Origin: a virus
Strand: one strand, 5' to 3'
IMG/VR virus record: IMGVR_UViG_3300013772_000008
Span: 1 to 52,077 of that record
Length of the DNA stretch: 52,077 nucleotides
The notes under the pieces were generated by a model, which did no database searches, was not told the DNA's origin, and worked only from the letters and a program-made list of their open reading frames with translations. Below are positions 34,166 to 49,560 of this stretch, one piece after another (the first letter of the stretch is position 1; each line of letters opens with the position of its first letter). The position numbers and the translations under genes are program-made.

Positions 34166-34334
34166 GCGTAACAGTTCGAACGCCGCTTACTACTACTCTT
34201 TGAGTAGTAGATCTTAAACCGCGCGCGCGGGCGCGTTCATTTGTATACCGAGGCGTAACAGGGTGTTACGGGTGTTACGCATGGCCCCAAACTCAGCGTA
34301 ACAGCCGGTGTTACGCTTGTTACGCTTGTTACGC
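34166..34334. other. Iteron cluster, candidate replication origin
   Basis: The octamer GCGTAACA or its complement TGTTACGC occurs eight times: direct at 34166, 34253 and 34296, inverted at 34264 (last base changed), 34273, 34309, 34318 and 34327. The last three are a 9-base tandem (GTTACGCTT). GCGTAACA-GCCGG-TGTTACGC is a perfect interrupted palindrome. The cluster abuts the 3' end of a replicative helicase gene and fills the largest gene-free gap of this region. Iterons beside a replication gene are the usual sign of an initiator-bound origin. Confidence 0.7.
34190..34210. promoter_or_regulatory. Nine-base-pair hairpin in the origin region
   Basis: CTACTACTC (34190-34198), loop TTT, GAGTAGTAG (34202-34210). 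No T-run follows on either strand, so it is not a standard terminator. Its place between the single iteron at 34166 and the main cluster suggests a role in origin function. Confidence 0.55.
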
Positions 34335-34335
34335 T

Positions 34336-35652
34336 TCATTTATATGTGCCCTCGCTCGCCAGCCGGCCCCAACGCATCGTTCGCCCGTCCTGAATGGCAA
34401 CGAACTTGTCTTTGTGCCTGTTCAGAATCACGCGAATCTGTGCGGCCTTCATCGTCACCCCGCTCGCTTCCAGCGCCCGCTGAACATCCTCAACGAGCAT
34501 CGGCCCCCGGTTCTCGCTCAAGATGGTGTCAATCTGATGCGCCTGGCCCAGCCGAGGGAACATCCCCGGTACGTCGTTCAGGTCCATGCTTTCGTAGTGG
34601 ACCGATAGCAGCGCATCGCCTTCCCCGGTTACAAACTCGACGCCATACGCCCGCCGTCCGAGTGACTTGACATTGTTGCTCTTACGATTCTGTAGCACCA
34701 CGACGGCGGCTTCATCACCTCCTTCCTCTGCCTTCTCCATGCTCCAGGTCAGCCGCGCCGCGTTGGGCGTGAACACGGACCCGAACGGCTTGGACGGGCT
34801 TGCAGTGGTGCCCACTGATCCCGCGCCGTTCTTGGTCACATGGTCAATCCCCAACCAGGGGATGCGCAGCTCGCGCGCGGCATTAAAGAGCTTGAGCGTC
34901 GTCTCCGCGCTCTCCGGTTCTCCACCACGGGCCAGCGCGAGCGAGTCCACGATCATGAGGCCAACCTCGTATTGGCCGATGTAGCGCCGCAGTGCGTTCG
35001 TGCTCTCGGCTAGACTCGCAGACTGCCGACGATAGAGGATTGGCAATCCGTCGCCCGCCTCATAGATGCCCGCGCCCGCCTCAATTGCCCGCAGCCTTTC
35101 CGCGTGCGTCTCCGCGTCCGATTCCCAGTCGAGGTAGAGCACCGGCGCTCGTGCCGGCGCCGGACCGCCAAAGATGTTAACTCCGTGGGCAACTGCCACC
35201 GCAAGCGCCAGGCCGAACAGCGATTTACCGGAACCTCCATCTGCGAACAGTACCGTAGGGCCGCCGTACTCAATCCACGGGTGATAGAGCCAGCGCGTCC
35301 CCTGGCGGTCCGGAACGGTGTGCAATTCCACGACCGGTTCGCCCTCGCGGTAGTGCTGAATCGCATCGTGACAGAGCAGTGTAAGCACGTCCGCCCATTC
35401 GAGATCATCCTGTTTCACCTGTAGCGACCGCGAGAGGGTGGTGTGAGCCTGCGCCGATAGTAGGTTGAGCTTTGTCTGACTCAGGATTCCCGGATGTGGC
35501 TGCCGACTCGTCTCGACTATCACCTCGGCTGTTAACTCGCCGCCGCGCGCTTCGTGGAAGCGGTCAAATGTGATCTGCCATTCCTGCCGAGCAGAGCAGT
35601 AAACCGAACGGTCGGGTTCGTAGGTCGTCAAGACGCCAGCAAGCGCATTCAC
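34336..35652 (-). CDS. RepA/DnaB-type AAA helicase
   Basis: 438 residues from GTG 35652, in a GTGA overlap with the zinc-ribbon gene and with GAGAGGTG upstream. The ATPase core: Walker A FADGGSGKS at 136-144, YLDWES near 165, Walker B GLMIVDS near 225, the arginine region PNAARLTWSMEK near 290. This is the RSF1010 RepA-like (AAA_25) class of hexameric helicases. The C-terminal 90 residues hold a winged-helix-like part (MLVEDVQRALEASGVTMKAA). It should unwind DNA at the neighbouring iteron origin. An N-terminal 120-residue domain of unknown type precedes the ATPase. Confidence 0.85.
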   Translation of the reverse strand: MNALAGVLTTYEPDRSVYCSARQEWQITFDRFHEARGGELTAEVIVETSRQPHPGILSQTKLNLLSAQAHTTLSRSLQVKQDDLEWADVLTLLCHDAIQHYREGEPVVELHTVPDRQGTRWLYHPWIEYGGPTVLFADGGSGKSLFGLALAVAVAHGVNIFGGPAPARAPVLYLDWESDAETHAERLRAIEAGAGIYEAGDGLPILYRRQSASLAESTNALRRYIGQYEVGLMIVDSLALARGGEPESAETTLKLFNAARELRIPWLGIDHVTKNGAGSVGTTASPSKPFGSVFTPNAARLTWSMEKAEEGGDEAAVVVLQNRKSNNVKSLGRRAYGVEFVTGEGDALLSVHYESMDLNDVPGMFPRLGQAHQIDTILSENRGPMLVEDVQRALEASGVTMKAAQIRVILNRHKDKFVAIQDGRTMRWGRLASEGTYK

Positions 35653-35999
35653 GCATCGGCACCTCTCAGCAGTTGGCGCTCTCGCTTGGCAGGCAGAGAC
35701 TTGGGCTTGGCAACTGTCCGAGAAACTCGGACAGTTGCCGGCTTCGGCACCCACGGCGCCGGCACGCCAACAGTCCGATGACACCCGCGGCAGTGAGGGT
35801 TACCGTCCATGTCGTACGCTGCGTCGCCACTGGCTTGCACGACCACGCCGCAGATGCATTCCCGGATCGTGGCGAGCGTCTCGGCCTCCGAGAACATCGA
35901 CGCCGGTGCGGAGAGTCCGCACCGGCAATGACGGTGAGCCGCCGTAGCAGGCGCCGCGGCGGTTGGTGTCAGCGGGAAGACTACTGAGTGTTCGGTCAC
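35649..35999 (-). CDS. Zinc-binding protein, 116 residues
   Basis: GTG 35999 overlaps the stop of the RAMP-like gene (GTGA). Cys pairs HCRCGL, ECICGV and HCRGCH (near residues 24-27, 48-50 and 69-73) give two zinc sites. The C-terminus is basic (RVSRTVAKPKSLPAKRERQL). It is coupled to the helicase, so a replication-associated DNA-binding role is plausible. Confidence 0.6.
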   Translation of the reverse strand: MTEHSVVFPLTPTAAAPATAAHRHCRCGLSAPASMFSEAETLATIRECICGVVVQASGDAAYDMDGNPHCRGCHRTVGVPAPWVPKPATVRVSRTVAKPKSLPAKRERQLLRGADA

Positions 36000-36712
36000 T
36001 GTGCGCCGTTCGCCTCAAACCGCTCAACGTCAAAGCGTCCGAATCCCTGGGAACGCAGCGCCCCGAGTCCATTTTCCTCGGCATGATTCCAGATCTCTGG
36101 CCAGTCGGCCGGCTTGATCTCGTCATGCAACACGATCACCTCGAACTCAATCCGTGGACGTTCCACGAACTCGATATAGGTCAGATTCGATTGCGGCCCT
36201 TTGGGCCCCGAGACGTGACCGATGAATAGCTCGATACCACTCGGTTCCCTGAGGTGCCCGATAGTCACTGATCCGCCGTCGAAGTAAATCCGATCCGGAT
36301 TGACGAATACGCGCTCAGCGAAGAACGAGCGTGGCCCCTTCTTGGTTACGCCCCAGCGCTGTCCGGCGAAGAGGATGTTGACCGACTCCTTTAGCATCGC
36401 CTTGACCTGACGCGACTCGAGAAACAGACCACCGGTATCGCGTTTGAAGCCGTTGGTCTGCTTTTCGCCCGCAATGTCTGCGAGCGCCTTTTCGGCGTCC
36501 TCCTCGGCAATGGACACGTCGTGCCCCAGTTCGCTGAGCGTGCGCCGGACCATCAGCGCAAAGTCGCGCCCCTGGTCCGTGCCGATACTTTTCTTGATCC
36601 AGCCCTCAATGATCTTCGGGTCTTTCGGTACGCCGCCCATCAAGCGGTCCCGGATTTGCAGCGTGGCGTGGTAGCTGGTGAACGTTGTCGAGTCCTGTTT
36701 GAAGATGCCCAT
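35996..36712 (-). CDS. RAMP-like protein (Cas7/Cas5-type fold signature), phage family
   Basis: 238 residues, ATG with AAAGGA upstream. Features: LMGGVPKDPK near 24-33, GLFLESRQVKAMLKESVNIL near 94-113, FVNPDRIYFDGG, HVSGPKGPQ, and the C-terminal glycine-rich loop GLGALRSQGFGRFDV near 215-229, typical of RAMP proteins. I recognise this as a family found singly in many phages, with no known role; RAMP proteins usually bind RNA. There is no Cas1, Cas3, Cas10 or effector nearby. A 12-copy repeat array occupies its 5' leader. RNA binding is inferred from fold signature only. Confidence 0.65.
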   Translation of the reverse strand: MGIFKQDSTTFTSYHATLQIRDRLMGGVPKDPKIIEGWIKKSIGTDQGRDFALMVRRTLSELGHDVSIAEEDAEKALADIAGEKQTNGFKRDTGGLFLESRQVKAMLKESVNILFAGQRWGVTKKGPRSFFAERVFVNPDRIYFDGGSVTIGHLREPSGIELFIGHVSGPKGPQSNLTYIEFVERPRIEFEVIVLHDEIKPADWPEIWNHAEENGLGALRSQGFGRFDVERFEANGAQ

Positions 36713-36828
36713 GATGTCTGTCCTTTCGTGCGGTCGTTAAGTAACGGGTTGTGGGGGCCCGGTCCGAGTTGGGGCGTCGTTTGGTACTGTGCTGGCCCGC
36801 GCTGACCTGGGTCGTGCTGGGATGGCAA

Positions 36829-37315
36829 GTCGAAATGTTGTGGGTCGGGTAGCCAGGGATTGAGTAGTCGAAGCGGGGAGAGCCGGTGTGCTGAGGCGCG
36901 AGTGGAGACGGTTGGTCGAAGCGAAGGGCGCAGTGGTGGGAAGAAGTGACGGGTCGAAGTGAGTAGGCCAGGGATGTGCCGGCGTGGCAGGTCGAAGAGG
37001 CTAGGAGCGGAACGACTGGGGCAGACCTGGACCGGGACGTCGAAGAGGCACGATCTGAGCCGGATCGGATGGTCGCAACGTGATGGGAAGCGACCGGACT
37101 GAGCCGAGCTGGCATGTCGAAGAGCGCGGCGCTGGGCCGGACTGGGGGGACACGGGCCGTGTAGGACCGTCGCAGCGGGTCGGCCAGGGATGAATCGGCG
37201 TGACAGGTCGAAGAGAACGGTGCGGATCTGACTGGGCGTGGGCTGCTGAGGACAGGGGCGAGCTGTCGAATAGGCCAGCGGAGAGCAGTCCTGGTATGCG
37301 GTGAATAGTCGATTA
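36829..37315. repeat. Array of 12 short direct repeats (GTCGAAGAGGC core)
   Basis: The core GTCGAA (or GTCGCA/GTCGAT) recurs in the same orientation at 36829, 36867, 36915, 36953, 36991, 37039, 37072, 37116, 37169, 37207, 37265 and 37308. Better copies extend to GGCGTGGCAGGTCGAAGAGG (36982 and, changed at two places, 37198). Two copies also share GGCCAGGGATG about 22 bases upstream. Steps between cores are 33-58 bases, often exactly 38 or 48. The steps are not multiples of three, so the repetition is in the nucleic acid, not in a protein. The 612-base gap 36713-37324 holds no credible gene. Confidence 0.75.
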
Positions 37316-37324
37316 GCGGCATGA

Positions 37325-37846
37325 TTAGGCAGCCTCGCCGCGTACAATGCTGGTCCATATCTGCGTCAGCTCGGACCCGTTGAACCTTTCGCCGATCGTT
37401 TGCCCGCCTTCCAACCGAGCCTTAATTGAACGCAGGAACGAGACCGTTTTCAGTTCCGTGTAAGCCCGCTGTTCCCGTTCGGCGATGGCAGCGTCCAGGT
37501 CTTGAATGGTCATATCCATCAACTTCAGATGTCGGTCGCCGATGTGCTCCAGCCACGCATCCCAGCGGGAACGCTTGGTAAGCTGTTTCGGATCGTCCGG
37601 CGCTTCGTCATGCGAGACGGTCATGCGACTTGCGGCAGCCACCCGCTGCGCCGACTGGTAAGCAACCGTGTAGACCATCATGCCGATCGCCTCCTTGAGG
37701 AACTTCGCATCGTTCATCAAGTCATCGCGTACCCGCCGCGCGATCGTCGGTAGCTGTACCGAATCGTTCAGTGCATACTCTGCCTCCATCACGTTCTTGA
37801 CCTTGTTCGTAATGCGGACCTTGACCGGGGTAATACCGTCGTTCAT
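37325..37846 (-). CDS. Hypothetical protein, 173 residues
   Basis: ATG with AAAAGGAG seven bases upstream. Helix-rich, charged protein (MNDGITPVKVRITNKVKNVM; LPTIARRVRDDLMNDAKFLK; LMDMTIQDLDAAIAEREQRA). No catalytic motif or membrane span. It is the gene directly upstream of the repeat array and the RAMP-like gene in the same transcription direction. It could be the array-binding partner, but nothing in the sequence shows that. Confidence 0.65.
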   Translation of the reverse strand: MNDGITPVKVRITNKVKNVMEAEYALNDSVQLPTIARRVRDDLMNDAKFLKEAIGMMVYTVAYQSAQRVAAASRMTVSHDEAPDDPKQLTKRSRWDAWLEHIGDRHLKLMDMTIQDLDAAIAEREQRAYTELKTVSFLRSIKARLEGGQTIGERFNGSELTQIWTSIVRGEAA

Positions 37847-37867
37847 GGCGTTCTCCTTTTCAGCCTG

Positions 37868-38089
37868 CTACCCCATCCCCTTCGGCCTGCCGGTCGAGTG
37901 CCGCCGGCTCCACGTCCGCCCGCGTTTCAACGCCCGCAGCCGCTCGTCACGCGCCGCCACGGCGGCCCAGTCGATGATGATCACCGGTACCCGCGGTAGT
38001 GTGGGCGCCGACTCGAACGTTTGCCAGCCCGCCAGCCAGGCCTCATAGCCGGGATCGTCAGGTTGCATTCTGTAATCCGGCTTGTTCAT
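37868..38089 (-). CDS. Small basic protein, 73 residues
   Basis: ATG with GGAGG five bases upstream. MNKPDYRMQPDDPGYEAWLA then an Arg-rich C-terminus (RDERLRALKRGRTWSRRHST). May bind nucleic acid. Unknown family. Confidence 0.55.
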   Translation of the reverse strand: MNKPDYRMQPDDPGYEAWLAGWQTFESAPTLPRVPVIIIDWAAVAARDERLRALKRGRTWSRRHSTGRPKGMG

Positions 38090-38098
38090 AGCTGCCTC

Positions 38099-38935
38099 CT
38101 AGCGGTCGCTGCTACCCGTGGCTATGGTTGCCGGCTCCATGTCGAACACTTCCTGGCTGAGGCGCTTAGCGGCAATCTCGCAGTACCGCTCTTCGATCTC
38201 GATGCCGACGGCGCGGCGGCCCAGATCCTTTGCTGCGCGGAGCGTGGTCCCGCTGCCCATGAACGGGTCGAGGATCATCTCGCCCGGATCGCTGAACAGC
38301 GACACCAACTCACGCATAAGAGCCAGAGGCTTCGGACATGGATGATCTGGTCGCGCCTCCTTGCCCTTGACGGTGTTGTATGTCCAAAGGGCAGCACGGC
38401 CACCGCCATTCCAGCGCATTGCTCCCTGTGCGTGGACGATAGTGCAGGGCTCAAAGCCCACGGAGGGCCTATCACCGGAGAACTGTGGCATGGCGTCCGG
38501 CTTCACCCAGGCACCGGTTCGCACGTAGCGCATACCGACGACCTCGAGAGTGGAACGCCAGCGGTGGGTGCTCTCGGCATCGGAGAACACCACGGCCCAG
38601 CGCCTAGTTAGCCGCGCGAACTCCACGGAACACGGCTCAATCAGCTCGTCAACCTCACCGATGAATCCTGCTGCCAGCTTCTCAATCGACGTGCTCGAAT
38701 ACTGGTCATTCCGAATGCCCAGCAACGCCCCGACTCTTGGATCGGACACGGGAGAATGGCGGGGCTGGCCCTTGTGGACTTTCGCAGACGGATGTGGATG
38801 CCTTAGACGTGCGTACACGTCGCGTGCATATGGTGGGTCAGTCAGGATGTGATCTACTGGCTCGAGCTGCGGAAGAAAATCTCTACAGTTCCCGTGGTAG
38901 ATGGTGATACCGCCCTGGTCGTAGTACGGCGTCAT
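38099..38935 (-). CDS. N4/N6 DNA methyltransferase, beta class
   Basis: 278 residues. DPPY catalytic motif at 33-36 precedes the SAM-binding motif DPFMGSGTT at 223-231, the beta-class order. HILTDPPYARDV and GIEIEERYCEIAAKRL are typical. It would methylate A (N6) or C (N4). No matching restriction enzyme is encoded nearby, so it probably protects phage DNA or imitates host modification. It follows the C5-methyltransferase gene directly. Confidence 0.9.
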   Translation of the reverse strand: MTPYYDQGGITIYHGNCRDFLPQLEPVDHILTDPPYARDVYARLRHPHPSAKVHKGQPRHSPVSDPRVGALLGIRNDQYSSTSIEKLAAGFIGEVDELIEPCSVEFARLTRRWAVVFSDAESTHRWRSTLEVVGMRYVRTGAWVKPDAMPQFSGDRPSVGFEPCTIVHAQGAMRWNGGGRAALWTYNTVKGKEARPDHPCPKPLALMRELVSLFSDPGEMILDPFMGSGTTLRAAKDLGRRAVGIEIEERYCEIAAKRLSQEVFDMEPATIATGSSDR

Positions 38936-38960
38936 TGCCCGCCCTCGTGCTGCGTGATGC

Positions 38961-40409
38961 TCACAGGTCTACTCCTGCCCGCTCGGCGAGCACTCGGAAC
39001 GCGAACGCGGCGCACTGCGGCACGACGGCGTTGCCGAGCGCTCGGAGCTGGTCAACGCGATATCGGGGTTCGCCCAGTCCGGATGCAGCCCCATCAGCCA
39101 GGCCACGAAGCGAGGATTGAGGCGTGCCGCCGGAGTCGGCTTCGGCACCATATATTCCAGACTCGTTGGATATGTCTTGCCCTTGACCTTGCTTGACGTG
39201 CCGGGTTCCACTCGCGGTGTTGGCCAGAGCCGGCGCGAGTTCGGGCCAGCGTTCGAGGACGGCAGCCCATCCGGCGGCATCGCTTGGGCGTGGTGGGAAA
39301 GGTCCGATGCTCGCCGCCTGCCCGCGCTCGGCTTGTAGCCGTCCACCGCTTTCGGCGTCGCCCATCGTGGCGCTTGCCTTCCGAGTAGCCCGTTCGTCGG
39401 TGCGTTCTCCGATGGGCTCGTGCCGTCCTTGTGGTCGCGTGATGTCGGCGTCGCCCACGCCGCCGCTTCGCCCGCTAGCACCCGCCCGTGCGTCGTGCCG
39501 TGCGATGGCGCTGGCTTTGTGGTCCGGTTCTCGCTCATGCTGCTGCGTGGCGTCGACCAGAGTTTCGCCACGTTCTCTAGGCCGATCTGCCGCTTCTTGC
39601 CGTCCGGAGTCATGCCCGTGGGCGACGTTCCCGGCGTATTGATCCGTCCGCCGTTTGGAACGTTCGGCGTAGGCCAGAGTTGTGTTCTGAGGTCCGGACC
39701 GCAGTCTCCATGTCCCCCCGATCCATTCGTGATCGCACTGCGTGCCGTAGAGTAGCGCGTCGCTGCATCCCGTCGCCCTGGATCTTCCGCTATCGCCCCG
39801 AGATGCCGCGCTGCCCGCGATTGCATCCACCACGGCCGACCGTCGTCCTTCCACGGAGCTGTCTGCGATGTCCCAAGGGCCGCCGTTGCGGTAGGCCAAT
39901 ATGAAGACTCGTTCTCGTAGCTGTGATGCGCCGACTTCCGCCGCCGTGAAACAGCCCCATTCCGCAGCGAACCCCATTTCGGCCAGGTCACTGAGGACGA
40001 GTTCCAGTCCTCCCCCAGTAATGAGCCCTGGGACGTTTTCCAGGAACACGAACCGCGGTCGAACGTCGCGAATGATTCCCGCGATGGCCGGCCAGAGCCA
40101 GCGCTCGTCTGCGGTTCCGGCTCGCTTGCCAGCGACGGACCACGGCTGACAGGGGAAGCCTGCCAGGACGATATCCACGACGCCACGCCACGGTCGGCCG
40201 TTAAAGCTGTACAAGTCATCCCAGATAGGAAACGCATCCAAGGAGCCGTCTTGCTGACGCGCGACCAGGACCGCGGCAGCAAAGACTTCGATCTCAACTG
40301 CACAGACAGTCCGGTAGGCATCTCCGAGGGCCAGCTTGAGCCCGAGGTCAAGTCCGCCAATACCAGCGCAGAGTGAGAGCCCACGGATGGGATGTACAGC
40401 CACATTCAC
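38961..40409 (-). CDS. C5-cytosine DNA methyltransferase
   Basis: 482 residues from GTG 40409, which overlaps the stop of the displaced HTH-gene fragment (GTGA) and has GGAG five bases upstream; the open frame beyond it is the antisense of the HNH gene. Motif I GLSLCAGIGGLDLGL (10-24), motif IV GFPCQPWS with the catalytic Cys87, motif VI LENVPG (123-128), motif VIII QLRERV (163-168), and motif X GNAVVP near 457. The target-recognition region between VIII and X is about 250 residues, long, Arg/Gly rich. It makes 5-methylcytosine; the site read is unknown. Its ribosome site lies in the fragment at 40406-40471. Confidence 0.92.
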   Translation of the reverse strand: MNVAVHPIRGLSLCAGIGGLDLGLKLALGDAYRTVCAVEIEVFAAAVLVARQQDGSLDAFPIWDDLYSFNGRPWRGVVDIVLAGFPCQPWSVAGKRAGTADERWLWPAIAGIIRDVRPRFVFLENVPGLITGGGLELVLSDLAEMGFAAEWGCFTAAEVGASQLRERVFILAYRNGGPWDIADSSVEGRRSAVVDAIAGSAASRGDSGRSRATGCSDALLYGTQCDHEWIGGTWRLRSGPQNTTLAYAERSKRRTDQYAGNVAHGHDSGRQEAADRPRERGETLVDATQQHEREPDHKASAIARHDARAGASGRSGGVGDADITRPQGRHEPIGERTDERATRKASATMGDAESGGRLQAERGQAASIGPFPPRPSDAAGWAAVLERWPELAPALANTASGTRHVKQGQGQDISNESGIYGAEADSGGTPQSSLRGLADGAASGLGEPRYRVDQLRALGNAVVPQCAAFAFRVLAERAGVDL

Positions 40410-40471
40410 TGCGTCTCCGTGTACGCTGCCAGCGCCGCGCGGACGTGTCCCGAGGTTGTGCCGAACTTGGC
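40406..40471 (-). pseudogene. Displaced original 3' end of the LuxR-type HTH gene
   Basis: Leftward this reads AKFGTTSGHVRAALAAYTET-Q-stop. The intact gene at 41170 ends AAKFGTRSGQIRRALQHEAK and on. In the shared part KFGTxSGx(I/V)RxAL nearly every third codon position differs (TTC/TTT, GGC/GGG, ACA/ACG, TCG/TCA, CGC/CGG, CTG/CTT), so both copies evolved under selection as coding sequence. The fragment lacks a start, ends in the native GTGA coupling with the methyltransferase gene, and is cut 12 bases from the HNH promoter. Confidence 0.82.
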
Positions 40472-40482
40472 GGGAGAAAAAC

Positions 40483-40491
40483 TGGTATAAT
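40483..40491 (+). promoter_or_regulatory. Extended -10 promoter of cassette 4 (HNH)
   Basis: TGGTATAAT: TG, one base, and a perfect TATAAT, 58 bases before the ATG at 40550. No convincing -35 box. Confidence 0.6.
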
Positions 40492-40495
40492 AAGA

Positions 40496-40525
40496 GCGAG
40501 GCGCGTGCTTGTGACACGCCCTCGC
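40496..40525 (+). promoter_or_regulatory. Leader hairpin of the cassette 4 HNH gene
   Basis: GCGAGG-c-GCGTG (40496-40507) pairs with CACGC-CCTCGC (40515-40525) around loop CTTGTGA, an 11-bp stem with one bulge. It begins five bases after the -10, so the transcript would start with this structure; it could stabilise the 5' end or attenuate expression. Confidence 0.5.
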
Positions 40526-40549
40526 CCCGACACCGAAGAGGTGACTTCG

Positions 40550-41158
40550 ATGCGCCCTCAGTGTATCTGTTCCAACTGTGGTCTGAGTAAGCCCCATCAC
40601 GCTCGGGGGATCTGCAAGGCTTGCTATGACCGCGCCCGCCTTGTCGCCCATCCCGATGCTCGCCGCGATTATTTCGCCGCCTACCGTGCGACCCATCCAG
40701 ACGAACGACGGGCCTATTACGTCGCTCATCGCCAGGAGGTGTGTGCCCGAAGCACAGCTCGCCGTGTCGCTCTGCGCGATGAAGCGTTGGCTTATGGCGT
40801 CGCTTATTACGCGCGGCATCGCGCGGAGTTTGCCGCATACTCTGCGGCGCATCGGGGGGAAGAGCGCGCTCGTCGTGCTGCACATCCTGAGATAGGCCGA
40901 GAACAACGCCACCGACGCAGGGCCAGCCTTCGTGTGGCTTTCGTCGCACCCGTCTATTTTCTGGACATTTGGGAACGTGACAAAGCCGTCTGCGGTATCT
41001 GTCATAAGCGAGTGCCCCGGAAGCTTGCGAGCTTGGACCACATTCTGCCCATAGCCTGCGGCGGCACTCATGAACCCCGAAATGTGCGCTTGGCGCATCG
41101 CCGGTGCAACTTCAAGCGCCAGCATCGCGGCGCTGCCCAACTGCGGTTGATTGGCTAG
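40550..41158 (+). CDS. HNH endonuclease with tandem-helix linker, cassette 4
   Basis: 202 residues from ATG 40550 with AGAGGTG upstream; the earlier frame to 40373 is antisense to other coding sequence. An N-terminal Cys cluster (CICSNCG...CKACYDRAR, 5-30) is followed by four or five short repeats of the type (Y)YxAHRxE (40-115) and a C-terminal HNH core: CGICHKRVPRKLASLDHILP and GGTHEPRNVRLAHRRCN (about 148-190). This differs from the HNH_3 type of the other four nucleases. Convergent with the LuxR-type HTH gene, whose stop is 11 bases away. Confidence 0.88.
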   Translation: MRPQCICSNCGLSKPHHARGICKACYDRARLVAHPDARRDYFAAYRATHPDERRAYYVAHRQEVCARSTARRVALRDEALAYGVAYYARHRAEFAAYSAAHRGEERARRAAHPEIGREQRHRRRASLRVAFVAPVYFLDIWERDKAVCGICHKRVPRKLASLDHILPIACGGTHEPRNVRLAHRRCNFKRQHRGAAQLRLIG

Positions 41159-41998: not shown

Positions 41999-42314
41999 AG
42001 TCGTAATCTTCTCCGAGCCAAATCCCGTACACGTCCACACGGTCGGTGTCGGCTTCAAACCACCAGGCGGCGCCGGTGTCCTCGCACGTCAGCGTCAAGC
42101 CGGCGTTGACCAGGTGGACCGTCTGCCCGAGGTGCGTCACCGAACACGCCGCCGTGCGGCCCGCCGTGACGGTCGTGCCGGTAGCCGTTGTGCAGCACTG
42201 AAAATAGCTCGTTACCCTCGTGTATCCGTCTGCTCGTGCTTTCGGCGCCGGGAGGGCAGCGGCAATCGAAAGCATCACCGCTGCGCCAACCCCCAGCGCC
42301 TTGCGCCGCGTCAA
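41982..42314 (-). CDS. Exported protein with Tat-type signal peptide, 110 residues
   Basis: TTG 42314 overlaps the stop of the HNH gene (TTGA) with GGAGG five bases upstream. LTRRKALGVGAAVMLSIAAA followed by LPAPKARA is a twin-arginine-like signal with AxA cleavage. The mature part (about 80 residues) has four Cys and aromatic-rich end (WWFEADTDRVDVYGIWLGED). It should be secreted by the host. Function unknown; an envelope-acting or exclusion factor is possible. Confidence 0.65.
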   Translation of the reverse strand: MTRRKALGVGAAVMLSIAAALPAPKARADGYTRVTSYFQCCTTATGTTVTAGRTAACSVTHLGQTVHLVNAGLTLTCEDTGAAWWFEADTDRVDVYGIWLGEDYDYVWFE

Positions 42315-42898
42315 ACGTGCCTCCAAGTCTTGCCATGAATCACGTTATAAATGGCCGTAGGACCCACGCCGAACGCATTGGCTATCTGTTTCTGAAACTC
42401 TCCTTTCGCTACGCGACTCCGAATCTCGCGTACCGCACCCTCGGTAAGTTTTGATGAAACGTGATTTTCACCGCGTGGTAACCGCTCGGGGTGTAAGTGA
42501 TTACCGCTGTTATTGCCGCGTGGTCGTCGTTCAGGATGCGTGCGACTACCATGTCGCTCTCCGCGTGCTAGGCACTCGGGGTGTAGGCGACTACCGCTTC
42601 TATTTCCGGTAGCGGATCGTCCCTTCGCGGTCATATCGCGATTGTTGTCGGCGACGGTTCCCAGAAACAGATGATTCGGTCGCACGCATGGCGGGTTGTC
42701 GCAGTGGTGGCAAACGCAGAAACCGGAAGGGATGGGGCCGAATGTCAACGTCCAAGCAATTCGGTGCGTCCCGGTCTTGCGGCCGGTTCTACCGTCTCGG
42801 GCCTGCCCATAACCGCCGGTGGCTTTGCCGCCCTGCCATTCCCAACAATCGGCCGAGCGTTTGACCTTAGTCCAGAAGTTGGCAGTTGTGTCGGTCAT
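42311..42898 (-). CDS. HNH homing-type endonuclease, co-directional copy 1
   Basis: 195 residues from ATG 42898 in a TGATG overlap. HNH_3 core: DCWEWQGGKATGGYG (near 17-31), THRIAW (44-49), VCHHCDNPPCVRPNHLFLG (near 62-80). Then three HPER-type repeats (SGSRLHPECLARGERHG, SRTHPERRPRG, NHLHPERLPRG) and a C-terminal HTH (KLTEGAVREIRSR... IANAFGVGPTAIYNVI). It sits in the leftward operon with tight overlaps on both sides and has no own promoter. Confidence 0.88.
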   Translation of the reverse strand: MTDTTANFWTKVKRSADCWEWQGGKATGGYGQARDGRTGRKTGTHRIAWTLTFGPIPSGFCVCHHCDNPPCVRPNHLFLGTVADNNRDMTAKGRSATGNRSGSRLHPECLARGERHGSRTHPERRPRGNNSGNHLHPERLPRGENHVSSKLTEGAVREIRSRVAKGEFQKQIANAFGVGPTAIYNVIHGKTWRHV

Positions 42899-43137
42899 CA
42901 GACCTGCACCGCGCGGTCTGTCCGGTACTTCGACGGCACTAGCAACGTCGGCATCTCGCGCGCCGCCGTATTGGCGCACTTCGTCGAACAGTAAAGTCCA
43001 CTGACCGCGCAGTGTGCCCAGCCGGCGCGACCGATGCGCTGCCCACAGAGTTTGCAGACGGCCCATTGCGCGGCGGCGGCTGATAGCGGGATGCGACGTA
43101 ACGATTGGGGGTGGGCATCTTGGTATGAAGTGGTCAT
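42898..43137 (-). CDS. Zinc-finger protein, 79 residues
   Basis: ATG 43137 overlaps the stop of the HNH gene upstream (ATGA) and has AAAGGA before it. CKLCGQRIGRAGWAHCAVSG and LYCSTKCANTA form a zinc ribbon of the same kind as the microproteins at 6118-6607. It is placed between two HNH genes. Function unknown. Confidence 0.6.
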   Translation of the reverse strand: MTTSYQDAHPQSLRRIPLSAAAAQWAVCKLCGQRIGRAGWAHCAVSGLYCSTKCANTAAREMPTLLVPSKYRTDRAVQV

Positions 43138-43643
43138 GCTGTCATCCTTTCGACGGGCTGTACGTGCCCCCACGACTTGCCGTCGCGAATAAACCCGACC
43201 GCTCTGCGCGAGACGCTGTAGCGCCGGGCCAAATCGCCCATACTTACGAAGCCGAATGAAGACTTCATTTCGGCGACTTGCTGGGCCGTGAGTTTGGCGG
43301 CCCCGTTGCGTTCGCCGCGTGCTAGCCGGTCGGGGTGGGTGCGCGCTCCGTTGCGCTCACCGAGAGCGCCGCGACCCTTTAAGGCCGAGTCACGATTGTT
43401 ATCCGCCCGTGTACCGATGAAAAGATGGCCCGGTCGGCAGCACGGGGGGTTATCGCATCTGTGAAGTACGCATAGGCCAGGTGGTATGGGCCCACGGGCC
43501 AATTCCCAAGCAAGCCTGTGAGCCTTCACATGTTTTCCACCCCAGTGTGACTGGCCATATCCCTTCGACGTTCGGCTCGCCTGCCATTCCCAGCAAACCG
43601 GCCCACATTCAACATTCGCCCAAAAGGCCGCGGACGTGTTCAT
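43134..43643 (-). CDS. HNH homing-type endonuclease, co-directional copy 2
   Basis: 169 residues, ATG overlapping the stop of the ATPase gene (ATGA). VCWEWQASRTSKGYG (16-30), AHRLAWELARGPIPPGLCVL and HRCDNPPCCRPGHLFIG (about 61-77), one HPDR repeat, then a C-terminal HTH (KLTAQQVAEMKSS; ARRYSVSRRAVGFIRDGKSW). Closest in build to the nucleases at 42311 and 1561. It breaks the ATPase-zinc-finger pair without disturbing either frame. Confidence 0.88.
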   Translation of the reverse strand: MNTSAAFWANVECGPVCWEWQASRTSKGYGQSHWGGKHVKAHRLAWELARGPIPPGLCVLHRCDNPPCCRPGHLFIGTRADNNRDSALKGRGALGERNGARTHPDRLARGERNGAAKLTAQQVAEMKSSFGFVSMGDLARRYSVSRRAVGFIRDGKSWGHVQPVERMTA

Positions 43644-47999: not shown

Positions 48000-48385
48000 C
48001 CTGGCGCTCGCCCGATGCCGACGCATGGGTGTCTCGGCTCGGCCTCGTGGTGATCTGGCGCGACCTGCAAGAACTCGACGAGCTGATAGTGCCGCCAGTG
48101 ATTGCGCTACGAGCCACCACAACGGCCCCTGAGCGTCGCTGGCTAATCTTCCACGCAATTGCCCATCTCCGGCTGCACACGGGTAACCAGCTTTATCTGG
48201 TGCGTTCCGGCGACAGCGTGCGACTCGCCAAGCAAGAGCATCAGGCCGAAGTGTGGACAGCGCGGCTACTTGTACCGGGTTGCGAGTTAATGGCGGCAAT
48301 TGCCGACGGATTGGCCGGTGACGAGCTGGCGGAGATGTTTAGCGTTCCGGCCGCAGGCATTGCTTTGGGGATAGGGCTACTGTAA
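47996..48385 (+). CDS. ImmA/IrrE-like metalloprotease, Glu-less motif
   Basis: 129 residues in ATGA-like overlap with the repressor gene. The order and sequence (RRWLIFHAIAHLRLHTGNQL near 47-66; HQAEVWTARLLVP near 81-93) match ImmA/IrrE peptidases that cleave XRE repressors after DNA damage. The expected HExxH is HAIAH (53-57): the two metal His are kept but the catalytic Glu is Ala. It may bind the repressor without cutting it, or represent a known Glu-less subgroup. Confidence 0.75.
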   Translation: MTWRSPDADAWVSRLGLVVIWRDLQELDELIVPPVIALRATTTAPERRWLIFHAIAHLRLHTGNQLYLVRSGDSVRLAKQEHQAEVWTARLLVPGCELMAAIADGLAGDELAEMFSVPAAGIALGIGLL

Positions 48386-49560
48386 TGCGCAACCCACAAG
48401 GTGAAGGCTCAAAAATCCGGCAGCGGCCCGACGGACGGTACACCGCTTCGATTCGCATCGGTGACGGCCGGCGCAAGTCCGTCTACGGCCGCACCTATAA
48501 TGAAGCGCGGTCGAAGCTGGCCCGCGTGCGTGACCAACGCCGGCAGCATGTGCCGGTGCCATCCGAGCGGCTGAAACTCAGCACGTACCTGGACGAATGG
48601 CTGGCGGGCAAAGCGTCGGAGATCCGTCCTGGCACCTACGCGCCGTACGAGTCGCATATCAGGCTGCATCTGACGCCGCAACTCGGCAGCATCGTCCTGG
48701 TGAGGCTTGAGCCGGGGCACGTACGCCGGTTGTACGCCGGGCTGGTTGCCGGCGGCATGTCGCCTACAACCGTGCGCCGCGTCCACGCGGTACTGCGTCA
48801 GGCGCTGCAGCAGGCGATGCGCGACGGACTGGTATCGCGCAACGTCGCCGCCCTGGTGCGCCCTCCACGGGCTGCGGCCTTCACGCCGGTGGGGCTATCA
48901 CCCGAGCAGGCGCGGGCTTTCCTCGCAGCGGTGGCCGGTGACCACCTAGAGGCGCTGTACTGGCTCCTGCTCACGACAGGGTTGCGTGAAGGCGAACTAC
49001 TAGCGCTCAAATGGTCGGACGTCAATCTGGACGGCACTCAGCTCGCGGTACGGCGCACGCTTCGAACACGGGGTGGTGAGCAGTTCCTCGAGGAACCGAA
49101 AACGGCGAGCTCGAAGCGTGAGGTGATGCTCACCGGGCACATGGTTGATTTGCTGCGCCGCCACCGCGCCGCGCAACGCGTGCAACGTCTGCGCGTGGCC
49201 GACCTATGGCAGGACCAGGACCTCGTATTCTGCGATGGCGTTGGCCGGCCGCTTTCACCCTACCGTCTGCTCCGCACGGAGTTCCGCGGTCATCTGCGGC
49301 GGTTGGGTTTGCCGGCAGCGATGCGTCTGCACGACCTCAGACACGCGTTCGCGACGATGCTGATCGCGGACGGCGTGCCCGTCTCGACCGTATCCAGCAT
49401 CCTCGGGCATAGTAGGATCAGCACGACACTAAACGTCTACGTGCATCCCTCGACCGGGCAGCAGCAGCGGGCGATAGACGCGCTGGATCGGCTGCTACCG
49501 GGGGCAGGTGGTGGTCAAGATGGTTGTACAAGTTCGGGTGAAACGGTCCAACACGGTTGA
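48385..49560 (+). CDS. int: Tyrosine-family integrase
   Basis: 391 residues; ATG overlaps the preceding TAA (TAATG). Arm-binding N-terminal part (GDGRRKSVYGRTYNEARSKL) and a SAM-like core-binding domain (62-165) precede the catalytic domain with Arg201 (TGLREGELLALKW), Lys near 239-244 (PKTASSKREV), His316 and Arg319 (LHDLRH), His342 (LGHSRISTT) and Tyr352 (NVYVHPS). All catalytic residues are present. It recombines attP with the host site; the tRNA-like sequence 15 bases downstream is the likely attP core. Confidence 0.93.
   Translation: MRNPQGEGSKIRQRPDGRYTASIRIGDGRRKSVYGRTYNEARSKLARVRDQRRQHVPVPSERLKLSTYLDEWLAGKASEIRPGTYAPYESHIRLHLTPQLGSIVLVRLEPGHVRRLYAGLVAGGMSPTTVRRVHAVLRQALQQAMRDGLVSRNVAALVRPPRAAAFTPVGLSPEQARAFLAAVAGDHLEALYWLLLTTGLREGELLALKWSDVNLDGTQLAVRRTLRTRGGEQFLEEPKTASSKREVMLTGHMVDLLRRHRAAQRVQRLRVADLWQDQDLVFCDGVGRPLSPYRLLRTEFRGHLRRLGLPAAMRLHDLRHAFATMLIADGVPVSTVSSILGHSRISTTLNVYVHPSTGQQQRAIDALDRLLPGAGGGQDGCTSSGETVQHG

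Follow-up and report, generated by a model that had tools for sequence, protein, structure and literature searches.

The stretch of viral DNA analysed here (the window; 52,077 nucleotides, IMG/VR record IMGVR_UViG_3300013772_000008) carries, flanked by leftward genes at 37325-37846 and 35996-36712, a minus-strand array of 578 bases built of NNNNC pentamers and punctuated by the trinucleotide GAC. The features needed for the argument are the following:

36733-37310, minus strand: putative guide array, in which 14 GAC delimiters bound 13 units of NNNNC pentamers
35996-36712, minus strand: RAMP gene (Vipr-like, predicted Cas7/Csm3 fold), 238 aa, glycine loop GLGALRSQGFGRF
37325-37846, minus strand: candidate accessory (vap-like) gene, 173 aa, on the 5' side of the array
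37075-37115, minus strand: irregular 41-nt unit, one-base slip in the pentamer register
37119-37168, minus strand: putative guide unit matching a terminase gene, GGTCC TACAC GGCCC GTGTC CCCCC AGTCC GGCCC AGCGC CGCGC TCTTC
37172-37206, minus strand: putative 7-pentamer guide unit resembling unit 36956-36990 (direct repeat family D1, 83%)
37210-37264, minus strand: putative 11-pentamer guide unit, 0 matches with 10 NN pairs in IMG/VR (viral_contigs)

Upstream of the array system, two DNA methyltransferases of the N6/N4 and C5 types are encoded at 38099-40949, the C5 type being also that of a gene matched by a guide of another phage (see below). Two adjacent HNH endonuclease genes (HNH_3; 42311-43643) are possibly homing genes, and a perfect 9-bp tandem repeat, TGTTACGCT, present in 3.1 copies at 34309-34336, abuts the end of a helicase-like gene (34336-35784). 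A tyrosine integrase gene lies on the plus strand at 48385-49560, and the virus is therefore probably temperate.

Register and composition of the array

The first-pass annotation described twelve copies of one core placed nearly all on a 5-base grid. Twelve cores are indeed present (starting at 36829, 36867, 36915, 36953, 36991, 37039, 37072, 37116, 37169, 37207, 37265 and 37308) and take the plus-strand forms GTCGAA, GTCGCA or GTCGATT, although the core string then given, GTCGAAGAGGC, is found in full in only two of them, and the array is larger, with 14 GAC delimiters. The additional ones, GTC at 36776 and 36733, extend it nearly to where the downstream RAMP gene has its ribosome site. Steps from core to core measure 38, 48, 38, 38, 48, 33, 44, 53, 38, 58 and 43 bases; ten of these eleven equal 3 modulo 5, as the grid would have it, but that of 44 equals 4. 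The odd steps (33, 38, 43, 48, 53 and 58) resolve into the three bases of GAC plus 6-11 pentamers, and the units contain, in transcript order, 8, 11, 7, 10, an irregular number, 6, 9, 7, 7, 9, 7, 10 and 8 pentamers. Across the ten of eleven inter-core segments whose lengths are divisible by five, the fifth base is C in 81/81 minus-strand pentamers, a count that leaves out the 41-nt segment with the one-base slip. The unit is one of nucleic acid, as had been proposed, yet what had been taken for repeats of one core is punctuation, and the information lies in the pentamers between.

The 613-base intergenic region contains the pattern C(NNNNC)4GAC(NNNNC)4 11 times, whereas over 2000 dinucleotide shuffles of it the count averaged 0.0095 and never exceeded 2, so that the array withstands the shuffled-sequence check proposed for it; the backward-read version of the pattern has 0 occurrences in the window. 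The longest simple one-phase run of C, by comparison, reaches 12 against a shuffled mean of 7.2 and maximum of 17 and is not unusual. The non-chance feature is the register reset by GAC, not the simple run of C. Two minus-strand frames remain open across the array, which we attribute to composition rather than to coding. Against Rfam, 35900-38000 had no match with an E of 1 or less and no hammerhead family, the array RNA folds no better than its shuffles (z 0.10), no structured tail was found, and a long conserved direct repeat is absent from the array, in which nothing recurs but GAC and a short junction. This junction ahead of GAC reads T-K-C, often TTC in the window and TGC in the related phage G035.

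Units 37172-37206 and 36956-36990 appear from their letters to be duplicated and diverged copies. Their NN pairs read CT AC GA AT TG GA GC and CT AC GG AT TG TA AC, respectively, with three of the read pairs changed (GA/GG, GA/TA, GC/AC), as though a guide had been copied and then retargeted to a variant.

The RAMP gene and its association with arrays

The 238-aa protein is a small phage-encoded RAMP with an RRM core and a glycine loop. Its AlphaFold2 model (pLDDT 90.3, pTM 0.84, from a 38-sequence alignment) has as its best Foldseek match a chain of a type III-A Csm complex (E 3.9e-7), and VIA-align places it on a chain of a type VII Cas complex with Z 13.4 over 171 residues at 4.9 A and on chains named Csm3 with Z 12, identities being 6-16% among the matches listed. 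These matches bear out the earlier call of a RAMP-type protein, here with a Cas7/Csm3-type fold in a predicted model, and indicate that the nearest folds are those of backbone (Cas7-type) subunits. Sequence families say less. The protein had no PHROG family at E 0.1 and no NCBIfam family at E 0.05; Pfam gave Cas6_C only, below threshold (14.1 bits against a cut-off of 23; E 0.085), and the best PADLOC model was Cas6 (E 0.018). Among 39 homologues, five matched NCBIfam Cas6 (best E 0.0018) and none matched Pfam at E 0.01. The window protein thus exceeds no curated cut-off of the named Cas6, Csm4 and Cas7 families, and no cas family rose above its curated cut-off in the ten window proteins searched against Pfam and PHROGs.

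Three proteins were searched against a phage collection of 50,697 records and only Microcystis phage Mae-JY09 was retrieved, as the sole homologue of the RAMP protein (48%). Its array, mostly of six pentamers per GAC, lies downstream of the RAMP gene and holds 8 matches to the array pattern against 0 for the backward control. That array (L002 6755-7031, PP395641.1) carries no annotation in the public record, and the two stretches of this phage that were examined are 73% GC. Microcystis is AT-rich. Such a GC content being odd for a Microcystis phage, the host label may be wrong.

Scans with the 238-aa protein as a single sequence yielded nothing in viral_contigs, genome_contigs or plasmids, but alignment-based scans did match: a two-sequence alignment led to ten IMG/VR loci, nine of which have arrays. 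Similar arrays, which it had been proposed to look for upstream of related RAMP genes, accompany 9/10 loci found by protein, that of Mae-JY09 lying downstream. In the opposite direction, scanning IMG/VR with a two-GAC array pattern and no protein information retrieved 101 stretches (of unequal length, some under 2 kb), 61 of which hold a homologue of the RAMP gene. The proposal that the array belongs with this gene was sound; some of the 101 may be chance matches in stretches lacking a multi-unit array. The leftward reading first proposed was likewise right. In 124 of the 128 array-gene pairs, counting redundant loci, the array runs on the strand of its RAMP gene, and the array lies at most 1.5 kb from the RAMP ORF in 56/64 cases of the non-redundant fetched set. 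The whole records behind 50 chosen loci, chosen since most already showed arrays, contain a shorter array pattern in 48/49 cases, up to 108 times, against 0-5 for the backward control. One record, G008 (L126-L130), has 47+61 array pattern matches on both strands, and another, G031 (L131-L134), has 44.

The 187 arrays collected (redundant loci included) comprise 646 distinct units, most commonly of 6 or 7 pentamers. Pentamer position 4 is C in 65% and positions 1-3 are nearly free, with position 1 purine-rich and position 2 flat; the 100% C at position 5 is there by construction of the pattern search, which left position 4 free. At the DNA level the arrays are tandem 5-nt repeats with two variable bases. 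RAMP homologues also occur on cellular contigs of Streptacidiphilus carbonis, Actinomadura sp. KC216 and a proteobacterial bin; a chain finder detected arrays in the first and the last of these, and the Actinomadura contig (L124) has four clean units adjoining the RAMP gene. RAMP-bearing pieces span 44-73% GC.

The 173-aa neighbour matches weakly a PHROG of unknown function (E 3.3e-5). A profile of this protein and its Mae-JY09 counterpart recovered 33 ORFs in the fetched set, 32 of them in pieces with a RAMP homologue, that is, in 32/63 RAMP-bearing pieces, these being partial; the 33rd lies in L238, a piece ending inside its record's RAMP gene.

Turnover of units and matches in other phages

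Related loci differ by whole units. In L017 and L021, whose RAMP proteins are 97% identical and whose DNA is 88.5% identical over 7.65 kb, some units are near letter-identical and others unrelated while flanking genes are conserved; L044 and L120 have in common a run of near-identical units with unrelated units around it; and L027 and L053 (RAMP 94%) have hardly any unit in common. Whole-unit turnover of this kind would resemble that of CRISPR spacers rather than binding-site drift. Between homologous units (37 pairs) substitutions numbered 33/214 at pentamer position 3 and 22/214 and 23/214 at positions 1 and 2, a hint that the third, unread position varies somewhat more.

The rule by which such units may read a target, here termed NNx, is that pentamer positions 1-2 pair with the target and one target base is then skipped. 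We compared 755 guides with 2.54 Mb of phage sequence in which arrays were masked. For the 178/755 guides that had at least 8 pentamers, NNx found 3 perfect matches, where shuffled sets yielded 0.2 each; when the last pentamer was left off and no fewer than 8 pairs remained, the figures were 2 and 0.0 (n=81); at six or more pairs the excess was small (60 perfect matches against 47.7 in shuffles). Of fourteen other rules put through this masked test, positions 2-3 gave 1 perfect match against 0.0, positions 3-4 gave 4 against 2.8, positions 1+3 gave 2 against 0.6, and the remaining eleven gave 0, while for the rule of positions 1-3 at period 5 there were 9 guides with 3-4 mismatches, compared with 2.0. 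A first, smaller set of 303 units with arrays unmasked had shown no excess for NNx (1 perfect against 1.0), the rival rules scoring 8 against 2.3 (positions 1+3), 2 against 1.0 (positions 2-3) and 10 against 10.3 (positions 3-4); an initial comparison of numerous rules, made with 60 units, told nothing, since its period-5 results were self-matches. The array's own register was also examined for contiguous 4-of-5 pairing, which was rejected: 150/468 units of 6-8 pentamers showed no excess over column-shuffled controls.

The long matches carry the most weight. A unit of G003 matches the C5-methyltransferase gene of G009 (Pfam DNA_methylase, E 2.6e-32) at 20/20 NNx bases, in frame at NAADYGVPQT. 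A unit of G035 (L137) matches the RAMP gene of G045 at 16/16 (MPKTEDLI) and its own copy at 15/16; conversely, a unit of G045 (L139) matches the RAMP gene of G035 in antisense at 19/20 (GVTELLGGMP), or 18/18 without its last pentamer, and its own copy at 17/20. In both phages the own RAMP copy thus differs from the rival-aimed guide in one to three read bases, and from this reciprocity it would follow that two related phages aim guides at each other's effector gene. The third perfect match, 16/16 between a unit of L112 and L236, lies opposite a repetitive glycine/serine-rich ORF. An automatic frame test called 29/60 guide matches in frame against 107/286 shuffled ones; it miscalled the G045 match, which is in frame when placed by hand. 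Sorted by kinship, 394 guides gave 3 matches against 0.5 for own, 3 against 1.0 for related and 63 against 51.2 for other sequences, counting six or more pairs with no mismatch below 8 pairs and 1-2 above, and with G035/G045 not classed as related.

For the window itself, four of the five units that have at least 9 pentamers were compared with IMG/VR under NNx and one matched, the other three having no IMG/VR target. With nine NN pairs, unit 37119-37168 has exactly one IMG/VR match, and the tenth, unscanned pair also fits, making 20/20, antisense and in frame at IERLPLGTPYP, in the terminase large subunit gene of another phage (Terminase_6C, E 7.2e-7), which a portal gene follows (SPP1_portal, E 2.1e-16). 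A control pattern with these nine pairs reversed in order had no IMG/VR match. We consider this good, not conclusive, evidence for one guide. In the fetched phages the 12 window units reached, among the matches listed, only 5-6 pairs or 1-2 mismatches, which we take as chance. The one-nucleotide-skip rule appears to fit a minority of guides; most guides have no target in the sequence searched.

Comparison with VIPR and CRISPR, and readings of the locus

The pairing of a RAMP-type gene with such an array had been thought undescribed. This is not the case, as a RAMP with a 5-nt-repeat guide RNA has already been described as VIPR, with GGY/NN repeats (PMC13142463; bioRxiv 2026.04.26.720920). In that system a small RAMP (Vipr) acts with a vrRNA of 9-16 GGY/NN repeats whose NN pairs read target DNA with one base skipped, mostly the codon wobble; the targets are competing phages and prophages, and silencing and the 1-nt skip rule were shown by experiment (PMC13142463). 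The locus studied here is alike in its single small phage-encoded RAMP, in a 5-nt tandem repeat with two read bases per repeat (an RNA in VIPR, known here as DNA), in a further gene alongside, in targets lying in other phages and other RAMP loci, and in the one-base skip, which falls at the wobble base in long matches and is here deduced by sequence alone. It differs in that the fixed part of the repeat is not GGY but NCC (NN-NCC against GGY/NN), and in that the window has 6-11 pentamers per unit, GAC punctuation and one compact array, whereas VIPR has 9-16 repeats and a structured 3' tail, the latter described for type II on guide RNAs of ~100 nt (PMC13142463). A type II example is SUSP1 (PMC13142463), whose Vipr has 195 aa against 238 aa here and whose accessory protein (presumed vap1) showed no similarity to the 173-aa neighbour by hhalign. 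Similarity of the window RAMP family to SUSP1 Vipr is marginal: the family profile weakly matched a PDB entry, 'SUSP1 Vipr protein', at E 0.26, and hhalign gave a probability of 32% (P 5e-4) over 59 columns around the glycine loop. SUSP1 Vipr was not among the fold matches listed from a structure library reaching to 8 April 2026, which carries no weight either way. The preprint also names hammerhead-interspersed arrays, unlike the present one, in which no hammerhead family was found, and its main text names seven types and 'a related consensus' (fig. S17) (PMC13142463). Because its fixed part is NCC, we file the present system as a VIPR-like variant and not as one of the published types, as far as the main text of the preprint sets them out.

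The fold of type III Csm3 and type VII Cas7 subunits extends over nearly the whole RAMP protein (Z up to 13.4), but at 6-16% identity among the matches listed and with no other cas gene among the ten window proteins searched; five guide bases would here span three target bases, while in CRISPR pairing is disrupted at every sixth position (PMC13142463). CRISPR arrays likewise hold serial guide units with whole-unit turnover between relatives, but here 3-nt punctuation with a short junction takes the place of a long direct repeat and guide letters are interleaved with fixed ones. The full-length direct repeats and cas genes that define CRISPR-Cas were thus not found in the array and in those ten proteins, respectively.

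Taken together, it is highly probable that the locus encodes a phage-borne, VIPR-like RNA-guided system in which a multiplexed guide array is directed against rival phages. The array, the fold, the co-occurrence of the two, the turnover of units and a few long NNx matches were computed here. Two of the earlier suggestions, a binding array for the RAMP protein and a degenerate CRISPR-like array, came near the mark. Alternatively, the array could be a scaffold for RNA or DNA binding without guide function, the RAMP coating a C-spaced leader RNA for self-regulation, RNA protection or a block of translation. That the array in the window occupies the leader as far as the ribosome site, that position 4 is C in 65% though free in the search, and that most guides are without a found target would all suit such a scaffold; the Mae-JY09 array, however, comes after its gene, relatives swap whole units, and long NNx matches to rival genes are not expected of it, so that we hold it to be unlikely.

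A degenerate CRISPR array, serving as a source of crRNA with ordinary contiguous or 4-of-5 pairing, would account for the Cas7-type fold, the 33-58 nt unit spacing in the window and the turnover of units, yet it is hard to reconcile with the absence of a conserved full-length repeat, of any cas gene above its curated cut-off in the ten window proteins searched (Pfam, PHROGs) and of an excess over shuffles in the 4-of-5 register search (150/468 units); we give it scarcely any credence. Equally improbable is an array of DNA sites (stoperator, partition site or origin iterons) or a leader for Rho utilisation. The many short repeats of one direction between two genes and the C-rich, G-poor transcript would suit these, and nothing further came to light in favour of the Rho, stoperator or partition readings; against them stand the base-level 5-nt register, kept strictly over 578 bases around free positions, the pattern matches, which number up to 108 in a single phage (G008), and the link with a RAMP gene throughout a wide family.

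Under the preferred reading of a VIPR-like guide system, the leftward transcript would carry 13 guide units separated by GAC, and GAC with the preceding T-K-C would mark the unit ends and be the likely processing point. The NN-T-K-C-GAC junction may play the role of the structured 3' tail. Copies of the RAMP would coat each unit, one subunit per pentamer; by analogy with VIPR, the fixed C (often CC) at pentamer positions 4-5 would be held by the protein and the bases of positions 1-2 would stay free and be presented to target DNA. Each pentamer would then span three target bases, the third being unread and often the codon wobble base. The complex is predicted to bind genes of rival phages (terminase, the rival's RAMP gene, methyltransferase), which, again as in VIPR, would probably be silenced, and the 173-aa neighbour would be an accessory factor.

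Our findings would extend the very recent class of RNA-guided, gapped-code DNA recognition by a single small protein to another repeat alphabet and to a CRISPR-like multiplexed array, and the terse GAC-separated array could serve as a multiplex format. If the code holds, the targets of many guides would be predictable from sequence, and the origin of interleaved guides would be testable by comparing related phages. Because guides interleave target letters with fixed letters, new units would not be plain copies of target DNA. It is tempting to speculate, although we put this at somewhat short of an even chance, that a separate VIPR lineage has arisen with its own NN-NCC alphabet, GAC punctuation and many guides per compact array, its units being written by an unknown process or selected from duplicated ones, and that phages bearing it keep and exchange large heritable target lists.
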